NCBI RefSeq assembly: GCF_029542205.1
Contig: NZ_CP113783.1
Location: 186,001 to 250,000 of the forward strand
Reading direction: 5' to 3'
DNA from: Pseudoxanthomonas sp. SE1
GTDB taxonomy: Bacteria > Pseudomonadota > Gammaproteobacteria > Xanthomonadales > Xanthomonadaceae
DNA: 64,000 nt
Shown here: positions 1 through 5,607 of the stretch, one piece after another
Numbering within the stretch: the stretch's first letter is position 1
How the letters are laid out: each line of letters starts with the position of its first letter
The notes under the pieces: model-generated
Database searches by the model: none
What the model was told of the DNA's origin: nothing
What the model saw: the letters and a program-made list of their open reading frames with translations, nothing else
Translations under genes and position numbers: made by a program

Positions 1-255
1 GCCGTGGACGAACTGGACCAGTTCGTCATCCACCAGGTCAGCCGCCCGCACACCCAGGCGTTCGTGAAGTCCTTCGGCATCGACCCGAAGAAGGTCATGA
101 CCATCTTCACCGAGCACGGCAACATCGGCCCGGCTAGCGTGCCGATCGTGCTGAGCAAGCTGAAGGAACTGGGCAAGCTGAAGAAGGGCGACCGCATCGC
201 CCTGCTCGGCATCGGCTCGGGCCTGAACTGCACGATGGCCGAGGTGGAGTGGTAA
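1..255 (+). CDS. oleA: OleA, thiolase-superfamily 2-alkyl-3-ketoalkanoate synthase (C-terminal end, 5' truncated)
   Basis: This is the last 84 codons of a 3-oxoacyl-ACP synthase III-like protein; the start lies before the window. OleA joins two fatty acyl-CoAs head to head in a non-decarboxylating Claisen condensation, the first step of long-chain olefin synthesis. Two parts of the Cys-His-Asn triad are visible: the His in FVIHQVS and the Asn in EHGNIGPAS. The chain ends in a typical thiolase-fold strand (ALLGIGSGLNCTMAEVEW). The call rests on this fold plus the neighbours: oleB, oleC and oleD follow on the same strand. On the fragment alone FabH could not be excluded. A hairpin lies about 50 bp after the stop. 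Confidence 0.9.
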   Translation, partial: AVDELDQFVIHQVSRPHTQAFVKSFGIDPKKVMTIFTEHGNIGPASVPIVLSKLKELGKLKKGDRIALLGIGSGLNCTMAEVEW

Positions 256-305
256 GACGGTCGCTGGCGTAACCGTCCTCCCAGATCCATGCCCTTGATC
301 ATCAG

Positions 306-333
306 GGCCGGCAGTGCTCGCTGCCGGCCTTTG
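306..333 (+). terminator. Rho-independent-type terminator after oleA
   Basis: A perfect 9-bp stem (306-314 with 321-329) has a 6-base loop and is followed by TTT. It sits between oleA and the next gene, so oleA can end here and the downstream genes need their own promoter. Confidence 0.65.
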
Positions 334-421: not shown

Positions 422-474
422 ATTCGCGAATTCCAGCCGAATAATTCGCGAATCCGGCGTTTTAATTCTAGAAT
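422..474 (+). promoter_or_regulatory. Three phased ATTC-NN-GAAT palindromes (probable operator)
   Basis: Perfect 10-bp palindromes lie at 422-431 (ATTCGCGAAT), 444-453 (ATTCGCGAAT) and 465-474 (ATTCTAGAAT). Start-to-start spacing is 22 and 21 bp, about two helix turns, which puts all three on one DNA face. The last one ends 6 bp before the start codon of the regulator at 481. The stretch is clearly more AT-rich than its surroundings. The likely ligand is the winged-helix domain of the downstream protein (inference). Confidence 0.7.
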
Positions 475-480
475 CCCGGC

Positions 481-1536
481 ATGGCCAGACCTGACCGTTC
501 TCCTGAAATCGACATCGCTTTGTTGAAGGCGGTAGGCGAGCATCCTCGTGACCTCGTGGCCATGGTGGCGGGCCAGTTGGGACTCAGCCCTTCTCGGATC
601 AGCATGCAGGTGCGGGCCTTGGTGGCAGGCGGCTATCTGGTCAAGCAGGGCAGCACTCGTCCGACGTACGCGCTCGGGGAGAACCGGCGGTTCGCGCGTG
701 ACTATGCACGTGCAGGGTTGGCAGAGGATCGGGTCTGGTATGCGGATCTGCTGCCGCTGCTGATCCATCTGCCTCGCAACGTCCTGGACATTGCGCACCA
801 CGGCATCACCGAAATGGTCAACAACGCGGTGGATCATTCCGAAGCAACTGATGTGTCCGTGTGGATGGAATGTAGCGGCGGCTGCCTGCGGTTCTCCGTG
901 GTGGACAACGGCATCGGTATCTTCCGGAAAATCACGCGCGCGCTCGATCTCCCGGACGAACGGCTTGCTTTGCTGGAGCTTTCGAAAGGAAAGCTGACTA
1001 CCGATCCGCAACGGCATAGCGGTGAAGGAATTTTCTTCACATCACGCATGTTTGATGTTTATCGGATCGAATCTGGCAGCCTGATCTTCGATCACGACGC
1101 CAAGTACGCTCTCGACCTGCTGGACGATGCACAGGAAATAACAGGGACACAGGTTGTGATGCAGATCGCCACGGATTCGGCGCGGACGGTGGAGTCCGTG
1201 TTCGACCAGTATTCCAGTGGTCCTGACGACTATGCATTCGCGCGCACCGTGGTGCCGGTGCGACTGGCCAAGGTGGGCGACGAGAACCTGGTGTCGCGCT
1301 CTCAAGCCAAGCGATTGCTGCAGCGCGTGGAGAATTTCCGCCATGTGGTGCTGGACTTCGCCGAAGTCGCGGGTATAGGCCAGGCATTCGCCGATGAGAT
1401 CTTCCGTGTGTTCGCCAATGCGCATCCCGATGTGGAATTGCTCCATGTGCACGCGACGCCTGAAGTACAACAGATGATCCGCCGCGCAGAGGTACTGCGC
1501 GACGAACAGGGCGGCCAGCTGCCGCTATTGAAATGA
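481..1536 (+). CDS. Fused winged-helix / HATPase / STAS-like (DUF4325) regulator
   Basis: A 351-residue protein with three parts. Residues 1-70 look like a winged helix-turn-helix (GQLGLSPSRISMQVRALVAGGYLV). Residues 95-235 form a GHKL-type ATP-binding domain: N-box EMVNNAVDHS (111-120), G1 box DNGIGIF (142-148) and a glycine-rich HSGEGIFF (179-186). Residues 265-340 match a STAS-like DUF4325 domain. There is no histidine-kinase dimerisation helix and no membrane segment, so it is probably a cytoplasmic DNA-binding switch rather than a sensor kinase. It lies between oleA and oleB, its stop overlaps the oleB ATG, and three palindromes sit just before its start, so autoregulation and control of oleB are plausible. 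The signal and target are unknown. Confidence 0.8.
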   Translation: MARPDRSPEIDIALLKAVGEHPRDLVAMVAGQLGLSPSRISMQVRALVAGGYLVKQGSTRPTYALGENRRFARDYARAGLAEDRVWYADLLPLLIHLPRNVLDIAHHGITEMVNNAVDHSEATDVSVWMECSGGCLRFSVVDNGIGIFRKITRALDLPDERLALLELSKGKLTTDPQRHSGEGIFFTSRMFDVYRIESGSLIFDHDAKYALDLLDDAQEITGTQVVMQIATDSARTVESVFDQYSSGPDDYAFARTVVPVRLAKVGDENLVSRSQAKRLLQRVENFRHVVLDFAEVAGIGQAFADEIFRVFANAHPDVELLHVHATPEVQQMIRRAEVLRDEQGGQLPLLK

Positions 1537-2435
1537 AAGGAACCCACGTGCAACTTCCCGGCTACCCCTCCCATCCGAAGCGCTTCGAAGTCCGTCCTGG
1601 CCTGTCGATGAACTACCTCGACGAAGGTCCCCGCGATGGCGAGGTGGTGGTGATGCTGCACGGCAATCCGTCGTGGAGCTACTACTGGCGCACGCTGGTG
1701 GCCGGTCTCGCCGACCGTTACCGCTGCATCGTGCCCGACCACATCGGCATGGGCCTGTCGGACAAGCCTGACGACAGCCGCTACGAATACACCCTGCAGT
1801 CGCGCGTGGACGACGTCGCTGCGCTGCTGGAGCACCTGGGCATCACCGGGCCGGTGACGCTGGCCGTGCACGACTGGGGCGGCATGATCGGCTTCGGCTG
1901 GGCGCTCTCGCACGCCGCACAGGTCAAGCGCCTGGTGGTGACCAATACGGCCGCGTTCCCGATGCCCGCGGCGAAGAAGATGCCGTGGCGGATCGCGCTT
2001 GGCCGCGACTGGACCATCGGCGAGTGGATCGTCCGTGGCTTCAACGCGTTCTCTGCGGGGGCGTCCTGGATCGGCGTGGAGCGCCGCATGCCCCCCGATG
2101 TGCGCCGCGCCTACGTGTCGCCGTACGACACCTGGGCGAACCGCATCTCCACCATCCGCTTCATGCAGGACATCCCGCTGGGCCCGCAGGACAAGGCGTG
2201 GCCGCTGCTCGAAGCCGCCGGCAAGGCGCTGCCGTCGATCGCCGACCGGCCCGCGTTCCTGGGCTGGGGTCTGAAGGATTTCGTGTTCGACCAGCACTTC
2301 CTCGACGGCTTCCGCGCCGCGCTGCCGAACGCGGAGGTGCATGCGTACGAGGACGCCGGCCATTACGTGCTGGAAGACAAGCACGAGATCCTGGTGCCAC
2401 TGATCCGCGACTTCCTGGATCGTCATCCGCTGTAG
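1533..2435 (+). CDS. oleB: OleB, beta-lactone decarboxylase (haloalkane dehalogenase-like alpha/beta hydrolase)
   Basis: OleB decarboxylates the cis-beta-lactone made by OleC to give the final olefin. Counted from the ATG, it shows the oxyanion-hole motif HGNPSW (43-48), nucleophile Asp114 in AVHDWGG, a cap domain, and catalytic His277 in EDAGHYVLE. An Asp nucleophile followed by Trp is the haloalkane-dehalogenase signature that OleB shares. The ATG overlaps the regulator stop (ATGA), which implies translational coupling. An in-frame GTG at 1548 has a better ribosome site (AAAGGAA, spacing about 6) and could be the true start. The stop TAG is the TAG of a GTAG-headed repeat. Confidence 0.92.
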   Translation: MKGTHVQLPGYPSHPKRFEVRPGLSMNYLDEGPRDGEVVVMLHGNPSWSYYWRTLVAGLADRYRCIVPDHIGMGLSDKPDDSRYEYTLQSRVDDVAALLEHLGITGPVTLAVHDWGGMIGFGWALSHAAQVKRLVVTNTAAFPMPAAKKMPWRIALGRDWTIGEWIVRGFNAFSAGASWIGVERRMPPDVRRAYVSPYDTWANRISTIRFMQDIPLGPQDKAWPLLEAAGKALPSIADRPAFLGWGLKDFVFDQHFLDGFRAALPNAEVHAYEDAGHYVLEDKHEILVPLIRDFLDRHPL

Positions 2436-2492: not shown

Positions 2493-2873
2493 TTAAAGCT
2501 CCGGCAGCGGATTCTTGTCGGTGTCCACCACACCCAACCAGTCCGCGTCCACCAGCAGCGGCAGGCCATGCGCCACACGCGCCTTGTCGCACTGCGCGCT
2601 GCGTTCGCCGAATTCCAGCGAGGCCGGCACCAGCGCGCAGACCGACGGCCGCCGGTCGTGGATGGTGCAGCGGCTGTAGCGGCCGATGTCGGCATCCAGC
2701 GCCACGCAGCGCGGGTCCTTCTGCGAGGTGCCGCGCATCACGCGCTCGTGGACGCGCAAGGGCTCGGTCAGTGCAATCGGCACCACGCCGCCCTGGTCGG
2801 GGTCCGCCTCACTCCAGTGGAAGCTGACGCGGAAGTGGGCGCAGCAGGCGCCGCAGGTCAGGCAGGGGTGCAT
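2493..2873 (-). CDS. YkgJ-family cysteine-cluster (zinc/iron-chelating) protein
   Basis: A 126-residue cytoplasmic protein with the YkgJ pattern of spaced cysteines: HPCLTCGACCAHFRV at the N-terminus, then single Cys in DPRCVALD, YSRCTIH, PSVCALV and SAQCDKA. The family is predicted to bind zinc or an iron-sulfur cluster; its function is not established. I chose the ATG at 2873 because homologues begin near MHPCLTCGACC; an upstream in-frame ATG at 2912 would add 13 residues. It lies on the opposite strand between oleB and oleC, and the oleC leader overlaps its 5' side, so it splits the ole genes into separate transcription units. Confidence 0.8.
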   Translation of the reverse strand: MHPCLTCGACCAHFRVSFHWSEADPDQGGVVPIALTEPLRVHERVMRGTSQKDPRCVALDADIGRYSRCTIHDRRPSVCALVPASLEFGERSAQCDKARVAHGLPLLVDADWLGVVDTDKNPLPEL

Positions 2874-2965
2874 TGGCTTGGGCTGGCGGCGGAGCGCGGG
2901 CGGGACGCGCATTCTGCCAACGCCGCGGGCTGACGCAAGTACCGCCCAGCGGCGACAATGCAGGG

Positions 2966-4609
2966 ATGACCGATCCGTGCAACATCGCCGCCAGCCTGCC
3001 CCGGCTGGCCCGCGAGCAACCCGACCGCGTGGCCATGCGCTGCCCCGATGGTGCCGGCCGCTACACCCGCGAGCTCACCTACGCGCAGCTCGACGCCCGC
3101 AGCGACGCCATCGCCGCCGGCCTGGGCGCCTACGGCATCGGCCGCGGCAGCCGCACCGTGGTGATGGTGCGGCCCACGCCGGAGTTCTTCCTGCTGATGT
3201 TCGCGCTGTTCAAGGCCGGTGCGGTACCGGTGCTGGTGGACCCCGGTATCGACCGGCGCGCGCTGAAGCAGTGCCTGGACGAAGCCGAGCCGGAGGCCTT
3301 CATCGGCATTCCCCTGGCCCAGTTCGCGCGCTGCGTGCTGCGCTGGGCGAGGTCGGCGAAGAAGATCGTCACCGTCGGCACGCGCTGGGCCTGGGGCGGC
3401 ACCACGCTGGCGAAGATCGAGGCGCGCGGCGCGAGTGCCGGCCCGCAGCTTGCGTACACGGCGCCCGACGATATCGCCGGCATCCTGTTCACCAGCGGCT
3501 CCACCGGCGTGCCGAAGGGTGTGGTCTACCGTCACCGCCACTTCGTCGCCCAGATCGAACTGCTGCGCAACGCCTTCGGCATGCAGCCCGGTGGCGTGGA
3601 CCTGCCGACATTCCCGCCGTTCGCGCTGTTCGATCCCGCGCTCGGCCTCACCTCGGTGATCCCCGACATGGATCCCACGCGCCCGGCCAGCGCCGATCCG
3701 AACAAGCTGCACGCGGCCATCGCGCGCTTCGGCGTCACCCAATTGTTCGGCTCGCCCGCCTTGATGAAGGTGTTGGCCGATCATGGCGAACTGTTGCCCA
3801 CCGTGCAGCGCGTGACCTCCGCCGGCGCGCCGGTACCGCCGGACACGGTGGCGAAGATCCGCACGCTGCTGCCAGAGGGCGCGCAGTTCTGGACGCCGTA
3901 CGGCGCCACCGAATGCCTGCCCGTCGCCGTCATCGAAGGGCGCGAACTGGAATCCACGCGGGCGGCCACCGAGGCCGGCGCCGGTACCTGTGTGGGTCGT
4001 GCGGTGCCGCCGAACGAGGTGCGCATCATCCGCATCGTCGACGCCCCGATCGCCGACTGGAGCGGCGTGGAGGAGGTGGCCGATGGCGACGTCGGCGAAA
4101 TCACCGTCGCCGGCCCCACCGCCACCGACACCTATTTCCGCCGCGATGCCGCCACCCGCATCGCCAAGATCCGCGAAACGCTGCCCGACGGCGGTGAGCG
4201 CATCGTGCACCGCATGGGCGATGTGGGCTGGTTCGATGGCGAGGGCCGCCTGTGGTTCTGCGGCCGCAAGACGCAGCGCGTGGAAACCGCCGACGGCCCG
4301 CTCTATACCGAGCAGGTCGAACCCGTGTTCAACACCCATCCGCAGATCCGTCGTACCGCGCTGGTCGGGGTCGGCGAGCCCGGACGCCAATCGCCCGTGC
4401 TCTGCTACGAACGGCGGCCCGATGCCAGTGCCGACCGCACGCAGCTGGAGGCCGAGTTGCGCGCCATCGGCGTACGTCATCCGCATACCGCGCGCATCGC
4501 GGCCTTCCTGCCGCATCCGGGCTTTCCCGTCGACATCCGCCACAACGCCAAGATCGGCCGTGAGACGCTGGCCGCATGGGCACGCACGCAGCAAGGACAC
4601 CACGCATGA
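2966..4609 (+). CDS. oleC: OleC, beta-lactone synthetase (ANL superfamily)
   Basis: OleC uses ATP to close 2-alkyl-3-hydroxyalkanoate to a beta-lactone, the third step of olefin synthesis. The 547-residue chain carries the adenylate-forming motifs: P-loop [12 protein letters not shown] (174-185), PYGATE (311-316), the hinge region [20 protein letters not shown], and a C-terminal Lys at about 529 in [13 protein letters not shown]. The length fits OleC. I chose the ATG at 2966; an open frame runs upstream to 2873 but that part is low-complexity and antisense to the YkgJ gene start. The stop overlaps the oleD start (ATGA), so oleC-oleD are translationally coupled. Confidence 0.93.
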
Positions 4610-5607
4610 AGATCCTCGTCACCGGCGGTGGTGGGTTCCTGGGCCAAGCGCTGTGCCGCGGCCTGGTCGAACGTGGGCACGAGGTCATCAGCCTCAACCG
4701 CGGCTACTATCCCGTGCTGCGCGAACTCGGCGTCGGCCAGGTGCAGGGCGACCTCGCCGATGCCCACGCTGTCATGCACGCCGCCGATGGCGTAGGTGCG
4801 ATCTTCCACAACGCCGCGAAGGCCGGGGCTTGGGGCAGCTACAAGAGTTACCACGATGCCAACGTGGTCGGCACGCAGAACGTGCTCGATGCCTGCCGCG
4901 CGCACGGCATCGCACGCCTGGTCTACACCTCCACGCCCAGCGTGACGCATCGCGCCACCCACCCGGTCGAAGGCGGCACCGCCGACAGCGTGCCGTACGG
5001 GGAGGGCTTCAAGGCGCCCTACGCGACTACCAAGACGATCGCCGAGAAGGCCGTGCTCGCCGCCAACGATACGTCGCTGGCGACGGTGGCGCTGCGCCCG
5101 CGCCTGATCTGGGGTCCCGGTGATCACCAGATCCTGCCGCGGCTGGTGTCGCGTGCACGTGCCGGCCGCCTCCGCATCGTCGGCAGCGGCGAGAACCACG
5201 TCGATACCACCTACATCGACAACGCCGCACAGGCGCACTTCGATGCCTTCGATCATCTCGCGCCTGGCGCCGCCTGCGCGGGCAGGGCCTACTTCATTTC
5301 CAACGGCGAGCCGTGGCCGATGCGCAAGCTGCTCAATGCGCTGCTGGAGTCGGCCGGCGCGCCGCGCGTGGACAAGCATCTCTCGTTCAAGGCCGCCTAC
5401 CGCATCGGCGCCGCGTGCGAAACACTGTGGACAGTGCTGCCGCTGAAGGGCGAACCGCCGATGACGCGCTTCCTCGCCGAACAACTCAGCACCGCGCACT
5501 GGTACGACATGGCGCCTGCGCGTCGCGACTTCGGTTATGTGCCGCGCGTGTCGATGGAGGAAGGCTTCGAACGCCTGCGTGCCTGGCTGCGCGATCACCC
5601 TGTGTAG
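4606..5607 (+). CDS. oleD: OleD, 2-alkyl-3-oxoalkanoate reductase
   Basis: A 333-residue extended short-chain dehydrogenase. OleD reduces the beta-keto acid from OleA with NADPH to the beta-hydroxy acid used by OleC. The Rossmann motif GGGGFLG is at 7-13 and the catalytic pair Tyr139/Lys143 in [12 protein letters not shown]. The start overlaps the oleC stop; an upstream in-frame ATG at 4576 lies inside oleC and is unlikely. The TAG stop is the TAG of a GTAG-headed repeat, as for oleB. OleB, OleC and OleD are known to form a large multienzyme assembly in Xanthomonas. Confidence 0.93.

Follow-up and report, generated by a model that had tools for sequence, protein, structure and literature searches.

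Gene Content of the Locus

The window, by which we mean the whole 64,000-nucleotide stretch of the Pseudoxanthomonas sp. SE1 genome analyzed here, opens on the C-terminal end of a forward-strand reading frame (1..255) which we take to be oleA in view of its oleB, oleC, and oleD neighbors. Downstream of it lies a forward-strand hairpin (304..331) that resembles a terminator with a weak T tail; the RNA fold of 296-342 has a predicted energy of -25.8 kcal/mol (z -4.5), and the terminator scan left this hairpin unreported. A gene for a 351-aa protein occupies 481..1536 on the forward strand, and its stop is overlapped by 4 bp (ATGA) by the start of a forward-strand alpha/beta hydrolase gene (1533..2435; Pfam hydrolase), which matches NCBIfam haloalkane dehalogenase models below their cut-off, and which is presumably oleB, again in view of its neighbors. 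Further along are a CxxCxxCC gene on the reverse strand (2493..2912; PF03692) and, on the forward strand, the open frame of oleC (2873..4609) and oleD (4576..5607). The former matches the olefin beta-lactone synthetase model NF045786 from residue 36 of the frame onward (1025.8 bits against a cut-off of 900), with an in-frame ATG at 2966, and the latter is assigned as a 2-alkyl-3-oxoalkanoate reductase by NF042422 (637.2 bits against a cut-off of 580).

The 351-aa protein begins with a winged helix-turn-helix (wHTH; residues 13-58, 517..654, forward strand), matched by PF09339 (HTH_IclR) over residues 13-56 (E 1.1e-5; 25.6 bits against a cut-off of 22) and, under its cut-off, by MarR_2 over residues 12-58; its helices span residues 7-17, 25-33, and 37-49 in the AlphaFold model. 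The HTH of the relatives L028 and L062 is matched by other HTH models, under cut-off. The C-terminus has no IclR effector domain; in its place there is a GHKL ATPase core (residues 82-230, 724..1170, forward; PF13581 and PF02518 over cut-off, with borders taken from the model), followed by a DUF4325 STAS-like domain (residues 275-329, 1303..1467, forward; PF14213, E 6.8e-14, 51.8 bits against a Pfam gathering cut-off of 23). The GHKL/HATPase_c_2 match scores 31.7 bits against 27.4, and the ATPase motif residues N114, N115, D142, G144, G146, G181, and G183 are invariant among 63 sequences. The AlphaFold model, built on the alignment of these 63 sequences, has a mean pLDDT of 83.9; in a Foldseek search of the PDB with this model, all six chains at E <= 0.001 were SpoIIAB, aligned over the ATPase part (best match 1til, E 1e-5), and by sequence the PDB returned two weak matches only (E 0.03 and 0.053). 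Together, the Pfam domains and the SpoIIAB fold indicate a single polypeptide that combines DNA binding with a SpoIIAB-like ATPase and a STAS-like domain. The family is present across several phyla, judging by record titles. Neither plasmid (PLSDB) nor phage (INPHARED) records contain the protein at E 1e-5, and no family among the PADLOC anti-phage defense models matched it up to E 0.1.

A Triple Box Over a Probable Leaderless Promoter

The first-pass annotation, made from the sequence of the window, had described three perfect palindromes recurring at 22 and 21 bp and ending 6 bp before a start codon, and this description is borne out: ATTC-NN-GAAT boxes lie on the forward strand at 422..431 and 444..453 (ATTCGCGAAT in both) and at 465..474 (ATTCTAGAAT), corresponding to 418-432, 440-454, and 461-475 in the register of the family, and the ATG at 481 begins 6 bp after box 3 ends at 474. 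The centers of the boxes were said to differ, which is true of box 3 only (TA), as boxes 1 and 2 are identical (GC). Three such sites in the 64-kb window compare with 0.25 expected, and none of 100 shuffles of the window contained three. The 4.23-Mb genome has 17, with 422-474 as the sole three-site cluster; a random scatter of these sites would yield some 5e-7 triples within 60 bp. By all three measures a chance origin was rejected, and the triple box is real, far above chance.

Further ATTC-NN-GAAT pairs at 21-22 bp, for which the same annotation had envisaged a genome search, did not emerge: at up to two mismatches the window's genome holds no second pair at either spacing, and hence no regulon of these boxes was found by pair search. 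Once three mismatches were allowed, each spacing gave two additional places, as compared with 0 and 1 matches to a reversed control pattern. One isolated ATTC-NN-GAAT site, at genome position 250501, precedes a transporter-like frame.

Box 3 contains a proposed -10 element (TAGAAT, 469..474, forward strand) 6 nt before the ATG, from which a leaderless mRNA is proposed, and the -35 position falls in box 2, whose match to the -35 word is weak (3/6). These features recur among 29 Lysobacterales-type loci (protein identity >= 56%). TA stands at the first two hexamer places of box 3 in 27/29, of box 1 in 5/29 and of box 2 in 0/29, and the distance from the end of box 3 to the start codon is 6 nt in 26/29; the -35 match at box 2 averages 3.17/6, compared with 2.42 at random places. 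Three loci (L014, L017, and L018) fall outside the 29 owing to a poor box-register fit or a differing title, and the -10 and start-distance counts therefore speak for the 29 only. Given the placement of TA in box 3 and the fixed 6 nt to the ATG, the boxes would constitute an operator over a leaderless promoter, with box 3 probably serving as the -10 element and the ATG as the RNA start. We propose repression by occlusion; activation is possible too, since a sigma-70 consensus scan called no promoter at the window boxes and the -35 match is weak.

Conservation of the Array Among Relatives

To the window we compared relatives amounting, with the window included, to 100 distinct proteins, having dropped fragments (matches starting after residue 40 or ending before residue 190), a duplicate of the window locus (L081) and a locus without a start (L112). 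A motif-blind scan for periods of 15-35 bp was run on 99 of these loci, L048 being dropped for its short upstream region. The best triple repeat had a mean period of 20.5-22.5 bp in 88/99 distinct loci, window included, as opposed to 154/990 stretches drawn at random from these loci and 141/990 shuffles; in 61/99 the mean period was exactly 21.5. Scan scores exceeded the 99th percentile of random stretches in 43/99 loci and their maximum in 30/99. Because the loci are kin, the counts cannot be treated as independent, and a small number of the 88 (e.g., L003 and L067) have their best triple outside the box register. The 11 loci lacking the period are L024, L037, L045, L059, L060, L065, L079, L110, L111, L113, and L114, of which some have, by eye, two boxes or an inverted third box. 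A shared-motif fit that left each spacing free between 19 and 24, and was run without a shuffle control, placed both spacings at 21 or 22 in 80/99. In the TCCTTTAAGAA group (L062 and L068), the third box is seemingly inverted and closer, at 19 bp in the shared-motif fit.

The letters of the boxes differ by lineage. By eye, examples from Lysobacterales read TTAACTAGCAAAT or TTAACTTTACAAT, many distant relatives have AAGGTTGACAATA, and another group has TCCTTTAAGAAA. A TTC-NN-GAA core occurs within about 220 nt upstream in 4/80 loci, and never as an array; a literal palindrome kept in relatives was accordingly rejected. Of the expectation that boxes and spacing would align across relatives, then, the spacing stands, while the letters do not. 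The palindromy itself, which had been taken as a mark of an operator, fares no better: a best dyad of 5/5 pairs is found in 2.7% of 297 boxes as against 2.2% of shuffled boxes, and one of at least four pairs in 35.0% against 28.2%. All three window boxes are perfect palindromes, and the 28 other Lysobacterales-type loci together contain one 5/5 box (the third of L013). As relatives' boxes are scarcely more palindromic than shuffles, the conserved unit is the direct repeat: what is kept is a head-to-tail array, and the perfect palindromes are peculiar to this strain, a local accident.

The array was also sought by its sequence. The distant-type pair occurred once, in one of 369 genomes drawn from the class, 43 nt before a frame start that matches the family HTH (38% identity; the locus ends there). 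Among 14 genomes chosen for having the gene, where the pattern covered spacings of 19-21 only, it occurred in five, once in each, at positions agreeing with the family gene.

Box Sequence and the Winged Helix

If the boxes are read by the protein encoded beside them, then box and HTH might be expected to diverge together. This was assessed in 98 loci (proteins > 300 aa), of which 87 have good box scores and 29 are of Lysobacterales type, using as controls 30 other 17-residue windows of the protein and expressing the association as a partial r that controls for distance in the remainder of the protein. Across the 87 loci, box distance and HTH distance are correlated with a partial r of 0.514, a value reached in 0/1000 permutations and by no control window (best 0.347); for all 98 loci the partial r is 0.383 (best control 0.297), and for the 58 non-Lysobacterales loci it is 0.308 (best control 0.172). 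Among the 29 loci of Lysobacterales type, the HTH value (r 0.313) falls below that of at least one control window out of 30 (0.507); taken singly, box 2 gives 0.360 (best control 0.449), box 3 gives 0.162, and box 1 gives 0.081, a value equaled or exceeded in 163/1000 permutations. From this pattern of values above controls family-wide and below the best control within the order, the sequence comparison indicates a link between box and HTH that is clear across the whole family and not specific within Lysobacterales.

Individual pairings can be seen by eye. Where the recognition helix begins with SRQ, box 2 contains GTCAAT in 5/5 cases; S-[GTSK]-AR is accompanied by AG[CT][AG]AAT in 9/9, and SRAR is paired both with AGCAAGT (L008) and with GTTTAAT (L010 and L082). 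Diverged boxes together with diverged recognition helices provide a natural series for a winged-helix recognition code. A natural deletion is also on record: in L103 (1501-1629; with L098), the gene is lacking about residues 47-272 with oleA and oleB still flanking it, and boxes 1 and 2 seem, by eye and in this one case, degraded.

Relationship to the ole Genes

The ole context of the family was assessed by tblastn, because the crude ORF caller makes antisense errors in GC-rich DNA. Among the 99 loci other than the window, oleB is nearby in 11 and absent from the flanks (1.5-3 kb or less) of 88; the oleA end is nearby in 10, and the tight oleA-gene-oleB arrangement is found in eight. No constant partner genes emerged, as no neighbor family recurred in more than 7/100 loci by crude ORF clustering. 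In other genomes of the same genus the regulator protein was found in 0/36, and a close oleB in 21 of the 22 searched; at the level of the bacterial family, 20/395 genomes have some protein match, of which 15 are nearly full length, our own included. These counts do not support the designation of the gene as an ole-cluster regulator: it is not an ole-specific regulator.

The oleA-oleB gap is variable in content. Of 20 fetched oleB loci (our own included), 13 have a bare gap of 50-61 bp, two have a Fic gene in it, one has other DNA, and three have no oleA in the flank. The Fic genes (PF13784 and PF02661; L125:2412-3581 and L127:2407-3576) belong to two same-genus genomes and are preceded by repeats of their own (AAGGAAA-like and TAAGTAACG-like, by eye), which suggests that this slot has taken up a further single gene that controls itself. 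The other DNA, in L138, fills a 977-bp gap with what is, by eye, apparently an opposite-strand gene. For X. campestris, a gene with PF13784 (Fic_N) is mentioned as part of the ole region in PMC7064751, a paper in which the terms "regulat" and "intergenic" do not occur. With a bare gap, a Fic gene or other DNA between them, oleA and oleB evidently accommodate different single genes. Because unrelated single genes come and go in this gap, a place between ole genes is no evidence of an ole regulator.

Similar Arrays in Viral Contigs

Box pairs at the family spacing also occur in viral contigs. The GGTTGACAAT-GGTTGACAA pair at 21-22 bp was found in 51 viral contigs (42 distinct contexts, nine with a third box, two of the nine being plain tandem repeats), as against 12 contigs and six contexts (two with a third box) for its reversed control. 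Pairs of TAACTTTACAAT were found in 74 viral contigs (28 contexts, 20 with a third box), as against eight contigs and two contexts (none with a third box) for the control, and pairs of TCCTTTAAGAA, counted without a control, in four viral contigs (three contexts, all with a third box). The window's own box was not found as a pair in viral contigs. When the gaps of three-box GGTTGACAA matches were left free between 2 and 20 bp, the spacing (22,22) was the commonest, at 15/49 places in 34 contigs, with some plain tandem repeats among them; (12,22) was seen eight times and (24,24) six times.

The viral stretches (L144-L288, many of the contigs being covered in part) contained no family protein by tblastn at E 1e-5, and a domain search of them returned no GHKL or STAS domain and three weak HTH matches (E 0.0096 to 0.13). 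Array-bearing viral loci without the family gene in the stretch include L161, L164, L170, L174, L188, L190, L193, L195-L268, and L269-L272. The gene context of 48 chosen viral contexts was called heuristically, placing 38 between genes and 10 inside frames. Intergenic TAACTTTACAAT arrays face the next gene in 10/21, no more than chance, and 7/28 TAACTTTACAAT arrays lie inside frames. Intergenic GGTTGACAAT arrays face the next gene in 9/13, with one more lacking a called gene, which speaks for promoters in the GGTTGACAAT class. Of ten proteins from seven array contigs, eight match PHROGs, such as portal, major head protein, helicase, and DNA polymerase. The exact TAACTTTACAAT pattern is present in 0/299 genomes of the family to which the Polynucleobacter locus L020 belongs. 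In L145, L148, and L164, the GGTTGACAAT array directly precedes a short frame with a zinc-ribbon-like pattern (MDCP.C...TRVI), presumably NrdR-like; a TAACTTTACAAT array at L198:10244-10277 lies inside a frame matching the PHROG "porphyrin biosynthesis," which we take to be CobS-like. For GGTTGACAA in combination with phage, the open-access literature gave nothing relevant by title among the matches listed.

Discussion

We consider it likely that the three boxes form the autoregulatory operator of the protein encoded directly downstream. On this model, the winged helix of the protein would bind the three boxes, which are spaced by two turns of the helix and face the same side of the DNA; such placement would allow three bound units to touch and so to bind cooperatively. 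As the candidate -10 is in box 3 and box 2 coincides with the -35 position, a bound array would exclude RNA polymerase from a promoter whose RNA probably starts at or beside the ATG. The SpoIIAB-like ATPase and the STAS-like domain might in turn set the release of the array, via nucleotide binding or phosphorylation. In the window strain oleB is probably co-expressed with the regulator gene, because the two overlap, and the operator may consequently co-control oleB levels. The proposal of the first-pass annotation, a phased operator bound cooperatively, is upheld in part: the spacing persists in 88/99 loci and the box letters track the HTH across the family, and cooperativity is a possibility.

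Alternative explanations must account for the same spacing. A dedicated olefin-synthesis regulator, which would sense a lipid or an ole intermediate and control oleB and perhaps other ole genes, would fit a gene set tightly between oleA and oleB here and in 8/99 other loci, overlapping the latter and set apart from the former by a hairpin; we nevertheless judge it improbable, given that most relatives lack oleB in their flanks, that the gene is missing from the other same-genus genomes, that the gap is bare or occupied by Fic in most fetched oleB loci, and that the genome has no second good box pair. The period of 21-22 bp could, alternatively, reflect tandem sigma-70 promoter elements for which an operator is unneeded. 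Since a TTTACAAT or TTGACAAT box holds both a -35 and a -10 word, repeats at 21-22 bp would put these words 17-18 bp apart, and this geometry suits the TTGACAAT and TTTACAAT classes; the viral GGTTGACAAT arrays, pointing to the next gene in 9/13 intergenic cases, also favor it. Yet boxes 1-2 of the window (TTCGCGAA) and the TCCTTTAAGAA class fit neither word well and keep the spacing nonetheless, and box 2 carries the -10 TA in none of the 29 Lysobacterales-type loci, so that we give this explanation little credence.

It is also conceivable, if very improbable in our estimation, that another host factor binds the boxes, with the encoded protein at work in some other place, perhaps as a kinase or an anti-sigma factor. 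Much of the chain does lie outside the DNA-binding domain, and within Lysobacterales the box changes are not HTH-specific; against this, lineage changes in the boxes follow the HTH family-wide more closely than they follow any of 30 other windows, and a factor with other targets should not drift alongside one gene.

For the viral arrays we suggest, as a doubtful possibility, that phages carry host-family operator arrays as decoys or borrowed switches, such that the family would be a one-gene module meeting phage DNA; tandem promoters could explain part of these arrays. If decoys they are, then replicating phage arrays might titrate the autorepressor and turn the gene on, or sequester the protein for the benefit of the phage, and if the viral arrays are true targets, they would represent a new phage contact with a kinase-like autoregulator. 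More broadly, an unstudied protein family gains a concrete, testable activity, in terms of where it binds and what it controls.

Elements of the proposed system have counterparts elsewhere. In IclR/MarR-type autoregulators the operator overlaps its own promoter, and their N-terminal wHTH (PF09339 and PF12802) is like that of the present protein, which differs in having a GHKL ATPase and a STAS-like domain in place of the IclR effector domain, and in facing three direct boxes at 21-22 bp instead of one dyad. The partner-switching pairs SpoIIAB-SpoIIAA and RsbW-RsbV share the GHKL kinase-like fold and the STAS-like domain, whereas here both reside on one chain with a DNA-binding domain; for DUF4325, the label "STAS-like" comes solely from Pfam. 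Phased direct repeats of a short asymmetric box recognized by one binding protein are also seen in plasmid iterons and phage stoperators, and the array described here differs from them in comprising three boxes at one promoter, and neither an origin nor a genome-wide series of sites is seen in the window's genome. The Fic gene occupies the same oleA-oleB gap in two same-genus genomes, and encodes an unrelated protein behind different upstream repeats (by eye). In the open-access literature searched, DUF4325 is found in papers which, by title, concern other topics, and one of these describes a 112-aa DUF4325 protein in a Francisella prophage (PMC7924643). Within that literature, an array that is known in kind is new for the family uniting a wHTH, a SpoIIAB-like ATPase and a STAS-like domain.
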